Shown in pieces: positions 53,101-53,347 of a DNA stretch of 54,762 nucleotides. The notes beneath the pieces were generated by a model. It did no database searches. It saw only the letters and a program-made list of their open reading frames with translations, and was not told the origin of the DNA. The translations under genes and the position numbers were made by a program. The DNA comes from a bacterium (GTDB lineage Bacteria > Actinomycetota > Thermoleophilia > Solirubrobacterales > 70-9): positions 1-54,762 of the forward strand of contig JAHEXV010000008.1 in NCBI GenBank assembly GCA_023251935.1, written 5' to 3'. Position 1 is the stretch's first letter; every line of letters starts with the position of its first letter.

Positions 53101-53190
53101 ATGAACCTTGCGACCGCGACGATCAGGGTCGGGCGGGCGAAAACGGATGCTGGGTCGTTCCGACTCGTTGACGTGCCGTTACCCAGCGGG
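53101..53190 (+). pseudogene. Fragment of a tyrosine recombinase (phage-type integrase)
   Basis: About 26 codons read MNLATATIRVGRAKTDAGSF and RLVDVP. This is the strand-turn-strand block of the integrase catalytic domain that contains the conserved K-T-x-A-G segment and normally follows an LRWxDVDL block. Neither the upstream R-containing block nor the downstream HxLRHT and Tyr blocks can be found. It lies 120 bases before a tRNA-Arg half, the usual neighbourhood of an integrase. Short length keeps confidence moderate. Confidence 0.5.
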
Positions 53191-53308
53191 CCAATGAGCG
53201 AAGGGGCAAAAATGGGCTCAAGTGGAGGGGACAAGATTCCGACCGGAGAAGCGAGCTCGACAACCCCTTCGCCCGAAACGGCTTCGGAGAGCCGTAATCT
53301 CCAACTCA

Positions 53309-53347
53309 GCCCCGATAGCTCAGCTGGATAGAGCGACTCCCTCCTAA
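53309..53347 (+). pseudogene. tRNA-Arg(CCU), 5' half only
   Basis: GCCCCGA acceptor strand, TA, D-arm (GCTC, loop, GAGC), then ACTCC as the 5' anticodon stem and the loop CTCCTAA with anticodon CCT (53343-53345). The matching 3' stem GGAGT, variable loop, T-arm and acceptor 3' strand are missing; the sequence changes right after the loop. No matching 3' half is seen downstream. It is probably one junction of an integration or deletion event in the anticodon loop. Confidence 0.75.

Follow-up and report, generated by a model that had tools for sequence, protein, structure and literature searches.

A tRNA-Arg(CCU) 5' half near a contig end in Solirubrobacterales as the probable left junction of a 5'-side integrative element

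The window analysed here is a complete contig (C6, 54,762 bp) of a genome assembly of 2.49 Mb in 114 contigs, which is 84% complete. Towards its right end lie a conserved chromosomal gene, a variable insert that carries a remnant of a tyrosine integrase, the 5' half of a tRNA-Arg(CCU) gene, and two further genes of which the second is cut by the contig end (Table 1). The evidence is drawn throughout from sequence alone, and the elements discussed are known here from their DNA.

Table 1. Features at the tRNA-Arg(CCU) locus of the window
Feature	Position	Strand	Evidence
Conserved chromosomal left-flank gene, without Pfam family	48398–49066	+	Synteny with tRNA-Arg(CCU) at 13 of 19 tRNA-oriented loci of relatives (most others truncated by contig or stretch ends)
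Variable insert, from left-flank gene to tRNA half, read as older element body	49067–53308		Missing from empty-site relatives; Pfam; lower G+C in right part
Tyrosine-integrase remnant, 26 codons, around catalytic Lys (AKTDAG)	53101–53178	+	Family profile E 0.0024; BLASTP 62% over 26 aa
tRNA-Arg(CCU) 5' half, nt 1–40	53309–53348	+	40/40 identity; same break in G001, G011 and G023
First ~75 bp of putative second element	53349–53424	+	Common to G001 at the same place
SnoaL-like gene, possible cargo (element membership putative)	53483–53875	+	PF12680 E 3e-10
SAM methyltransferase gene cut by contig end, possible cargo (element membership putative)	53973–54762	+	PF08241 E 1.5e-19

The tRNA half is identical, without a single mismatch over 40 positions, to nt 1–40 of the intact tRNA-Arg(CCU) of many relatives. 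The anticodon loop of this tRNA comprises seven nucleotides (nt 33–39), and the identity ends one base past it; the fragment is identical to one tRNA end and terminates at a known crossover subsite. The initial annotation had the gene stopping exactly after the anticodon loop: the half and the location of the loop stand, while the end given at 53347 is one base short of 53348. ARAGORN and Rfam reported no tRNA in the window because only half of one is present, and Rfam gave no match even at an E-value of 1. For the missing 3' half, nothing beyond chance was found in the 1.4 kb of contig after 53348, and the whole assembly held no copy with up to three mismatches. An intact tRNA-Arg(CCU) was likewise absent among the 45 tRNAs of the genome, a count made from a family search and retrieved stretches of the genome; tRNA-Arg(UCU) was found. 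With neither the intact tRNA nor the 3' half in the assembly, the half is orphaned as had been claimed.

Pfam gave no match on the short frames of the region before the half, and a family profile was therefore built from 29 related integrases. In a search of 9214 six-frame fragments, this profile matched the remnant, which aligns to positions 232–256 of its 385 positions, and the remaining matches were all genuine integrases or integrase fragments. In single BLASTP comparisons, 16 of the 26 residues are identical both to the integrase of G043 (next to tRNA-Cys, E = 8e-10) and to that of G004 (next to tRNA-Met, E = 2e-9). These two integrases, which both belong to the 5' mode described below, have in common with the remnant a one-residue insertion after KT.xG. 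The remnant keeps only the K stretch of the R-K-HxxR-H-Y active site (PF00589). Profile and BLASTP together bear out the earlier proposal that this piece is a fragment of a tyrosine recombinase, and the integrase similarity at 53000–53300 is beyond chance. The remnant ends 130 bp before the tRNA half, and its reading frame differs from that of the tail running into the half.

The order of a GalT/DUF4921-like gene, the left-flank gene and tRNA-Arg(CCU) is kept in this family as well as in a sister family, and a phosphoribosyltransferase gene lies 3' of the tRNA in relatives, 18 bp to 6 kb off. An empty site was seen solely in other species, with 45 bp (G062) and 44 bp (G069) between the end of the left-flank gene and the tRNA; in most other family members this distance is about 0.5–7 kb. 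In the window, the left-flank gene and the half are 4.2 kb apart, against 45 bp when the site is empty. By this synteny, tRNA-Arg(CCU) is an insertion hotspot in Solirubrobacterales at which accessory genes accumulate.

By Pfam, the insert encodes an RTX-repeat-like protein, a GNAT acetyltransferase, a DUF2269 protein and an HtrA-like trypsin/PDZ protein, in addition to the integrase remnant. The HtrA-like gene (51877–53013, minus strand) has a best match in 40 relatives that is only 38% identical (G062). The G+C content of the right part of the insert is below that of the flank, and the remnant lies near the right end of the insert. We infer that the whole of 49067–53308 is one element; the remnant lies before the tRNA half and is therefore assigned to this older element, of which the HtrA-like gene may be cargo. 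At the left edge of the insert, the search for an earlier 5' half gave a best match no better than shuffles, and the idea of such a copy was rejected.

Beyond the half, the window and G001 are 93% identical over 116 bp, the half included, and of 101 relatives only G000 and G001 contained the stretch at 53349–53424. The SnoaL-like and methyltransferase genes are cargo that diagnoses no element type, and no mobile-element gene, an integrase included, was found in the 1.4 kb between 53349 and the contig end. The first 92 bases of the putative second element gave no sign of a special DNA fold (z = –0.76), and TTTCACGCGAAA was rejected as a repeated arm site, with one copy in the window and no exact copy at the loci of other genomes. 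Viral contigs gave no phage or circular form with the attP of the window, none of them having a tRNA half. One 12 kb viral contig (IMGVR_UViG_3300036795_000248, L236) encodes an integrase of the same family (49% identity) with no adjoining tRNA part. The right-flank gene of the genome sits at 1854–2402 of a separate 3,750-bp contig (C50), in an orientation that turns the left end of C50 towards the tRNA; C50 contains no tRNA and no 3' half of tRNA-Arg(CCU). Since the right-flank gene is on this separate contig, the intact tRNA-Arg(CCU) probably sits off the contig end, in the gap from C6:54762 to C50.

Complete versions of this arrangement are found in Solirubrobacterales relatives, in which exact tRNA 5' halves lie 1.3–8.4 kb upstream of an intact tRNA and the interval usually contains an integrase. 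In G011, a member of the same family as the window's genome, an intact tRNA-Arg(CCU) is preceded at a distance of 4,312 bp, on the same strand, by an exact 40-nt half. Between the two is a tyrosine integrase of 424 aa with a whole frame and a complete active site (R217, K242, HxLR 318–321, H344, Y354); this frame enters the tRNA and terminates at the anticodon-loop TAA. In a set of 399 genomes of the class, an orphan half with CG directly after it occurs only in the window and G011. G001, from the same genus, has an identical half and, after it, the ~70 bp seen in the window; its intact tRNA-Arg(CCU) begins 1,307 bp from the start of the half, and the family profile detected no integrase in this 1.3 kb. 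The halves in G001 and G023 came from a DNA search among nearer relatives. In G023 (L127, half at 5738, minus strand), no intact CCU tRNA was present in the stretch examined, as in the window's genome, and that assembly may be interrupted at a comparable point. An intact tRNA downstream of the half in the same orientation is thus present in G001 and G011 and not in the window's assembly, and an integrase between half and tRNA is present in G011, G203 and G029; the window's contig ends 1.4 kb past the half.

The break of the half coincides in G001, G011 and G023, base for base in the latter two. With the complete versions in G011 and G001 for comparison, an orphan 5' half is what the left end of a 5'-side element ordinarily looks like, and the half in the window would be the left junction (att site) of a second element. 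The half, the remnant and the complete elements in relatives confirm the footprint of an integrative element that had been proposed at the outset, and a half ending one base past the loop, with the same break in relatives, agrees with the proposed crossover in the anticodon loop. The two origins suggested at that time for a 5' half on its own are not supported: the half is undecayed (40/40), which speaks against a decayed attachment site, and loss of the element together with half of the tRNA by deletion is at odds with G001, where the same half and ~70 bp are followed by the intact tRNA 1.3 kb on, and with G011, where an orphan half is the normal left junction.

We therefore propose, as the very probable reading of these comparisons, that the half is the left junction of an element integrated in tRNA-Arg(CCU) through a tyrosine-integrase crossover within the anticodon loop, in two stacked rounds, with the intact tRNA beyond the contig end. 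Elements of this type appear to bring along a duplicate of the tRNA 5' half, placed directly after the integrase gene. A crossover in the anticodon loop would strand the original 5' half at the left end of the element, and the copy carried by the element would join the chromosomal 3' half, restoring at the right end a tRNA that would be driven by a promoter the element brought. An older element, within 49067–53308, would have put its integrase directly before the tRNA, and this integrase would later have decayed to 26 codons. A second element would have recombined in the loop and stranded 53309–53348, with its own content from 53349 on and with its right end and the restored tRNA in the gap before C50. 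Because the half is still perfect, this second event would be recent relative to the decay of the first integrase.

Instead of a recent second insertion, the half could be inherited from a single old insertion common to the window's species and G001, since the half and the next ~70 bp are alike in both. We consider this rather unlikely: once released, a half would be expected to accumulate changes, yet both species keep all 40 positions. The ~70 bp are 93% identical compared with about 78% for the right flank and flanking genes, and outside the half and the 70 bp, on either side, the sequences differ. To judge from this pattern of identity, the two species probably acquired related elements independently. 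It is less likely still that tRNA-Arg(CCU) is truly broken, a deletion or rearrangement having taken the 3' half and tRNA-Arg(UCU) reading AGG by wobble. The presence of tRNA-Arg(UCU) in an assembly without the 3' half or an intact CCU tRNA would suit such a loss; however, the incomplete genome places this locus at a contig end with its right-flank gene on another contig, G001 has the half and the intact tRNA together, most relatives keep tRNA-Arg(CCU), and the break falls at the integrase crossover and not at a random base. A chimeric join within the tRNA gene, which a fragmented draft assembly and a nearby contig end might invite, is highly improbable given the same junction and following sequence in the separate assembly of G001 and the break at the same base in G011 and G023. 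Group I introns of tRNA-Arg(CCU) occur near the anticodon, as does this break, and an intron-interrupted or split tRNA can be dismissed as next to impossible, with Rfam blank at an E-value of 1, the 3' half absent from the following 1.4 kb and from the rest of the assembly, and an uninterrupted gene in relatives.

The element junction proposed for the window belongs to one of two modes of integration found in the integrase family. Among named genomes, a scan recovered 28 relatives whose integrase is immediately followed by a tRNA. The 5' mode accounts for 10 of them (at tRNA-Arg-CCU, Arg-UCU, Met, Cys, Ala and Gly) and the 3' mode for the other 18 (at Arg-CCG, Val, Gly, Asp, His and Met). The copied tRNA block runs from nt 1 to about the loop end in the 5' mode, or from about the loop start to the 3' end in the 3' mode; the exceptions, short or ragged, are L212 and one L139 copy, which end at nt 31–32, one L205 3' copy, which begins at nt 43, and L233, which is imperfect. 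Direct repeats of the 5' half of the same kind occur at tRNA-Arg(UCU), Ala, Gly and Met. In a tree of 22 integrases, with modest support at many inner branches, the 5' mode requires two changes and a single clade is rejected (p-AU 9e-5). By this tree, the 5' mode appears to have arisen at least twice in the family.

Individual loci show further arrangements. At L205 (G029, JAFDWO010000044.1), a 5'-half copy lies 5.0 kb upstream of tRNA-Gly(GCC) and a copy of nt 43–74 lies 5.2 kb downstream; this tRNA was apparently targeted from both sides. At L139 (G044), two 5' halves (32 and 40 nt) are stacked upstream of tRNA-Arg(UCU) (1286–1360, minus strand), and an integrase separates the nearer one from the tRNA; the arrangement reads as a tandem array at a second tRNA. 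L212 (JAOPZF010000075.1) contains two copies of tRNA-Met(CAT) 1.3 kb apart, both called full, which share only nt 1–31 and are possibly hybrid tRNAs left by 5'-mode integration. In G011, where the integrase gene ends inside its target tRNA, maturation of the restored tRNA by RNase P would clip the last 12 codons and the stop codon from the integrase mRNA, an idea we regard as unlikely. If it were true, integration itself would shut the integrase down, and the free circle, with a half tRNA that cannot fold, would keep the mRNA whole. Such a shutdown is not general across 5'-mode relatives, since in several of them the integrase ends 10–21 bp before the tRNA.

Insertion on the 5' side of a tRNA has precedents and is thus an already known, if uncommon, mode, of which the window is a new example. 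In Islander, which also counted tandem arrays, 159 of 3919 tDNA islands have a displaced 5' fragment (PMC4383910), and they resemble the complete relatives in the tRNA fragment upstream of a restored tRNA and the integrase between them, and the window too in the crossover at the anticodon. They differ in that the right end of the putative second element is unassembled here and the older integrase decayed, and several of the complete relatives described here are under or near the 2 kb lower length limit of Islander or are in draft genomes outside its search. Set against the Islander fraction, 10 of 28 in 5' mode is an excess (binomial p 8e-8), the relatives not being independent draws. Integration at the 5' half of a tRNA is known in archaea and said to be seldom met in bacteria (PMC8371274). 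The archaeal pTN3-like integrases likewise use the 5' half of a tRNA gene as attB, with the restored tRNA behind element sequence and expressed from the integrase promoter (PMC8371274). Unlike these 'suicidal' integrases, which are split by integration, the integrated integrase of G011 stays a whole frame of 424 aa, its gene not split at an attachment site inside it. Classical 3'-side tRNA integrases, including Solirubrobacterales members of the same family, use the same anticodon-loop crossover, but as a mirror image: it is the 3' part of the tRNA that they carry, and their position is downstream of the gene. The new detail, as read from these sequences, appears to be that one integrase family uses either tRNA half and acquired its 5' mode at least twice. 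A literature search, with coverage lacking most subscription journals, found no work on this locus.

The proposed element junction explains both the half tRNA and the apparently missing tRNA gene of the window's genome. 'Missing' tRNAs in draft genomes can hide in element arrays, and the pattern in G023 is like that of the window. The 5' mode should place expression of the tRNA behind a promoter borne by the element. For the choice of attachment site, this integrase family offers a natural experiment: its members use the same loop but differ in which part of the tRNA they carry, 5' or 3', and at least two switches appear to have taken place.
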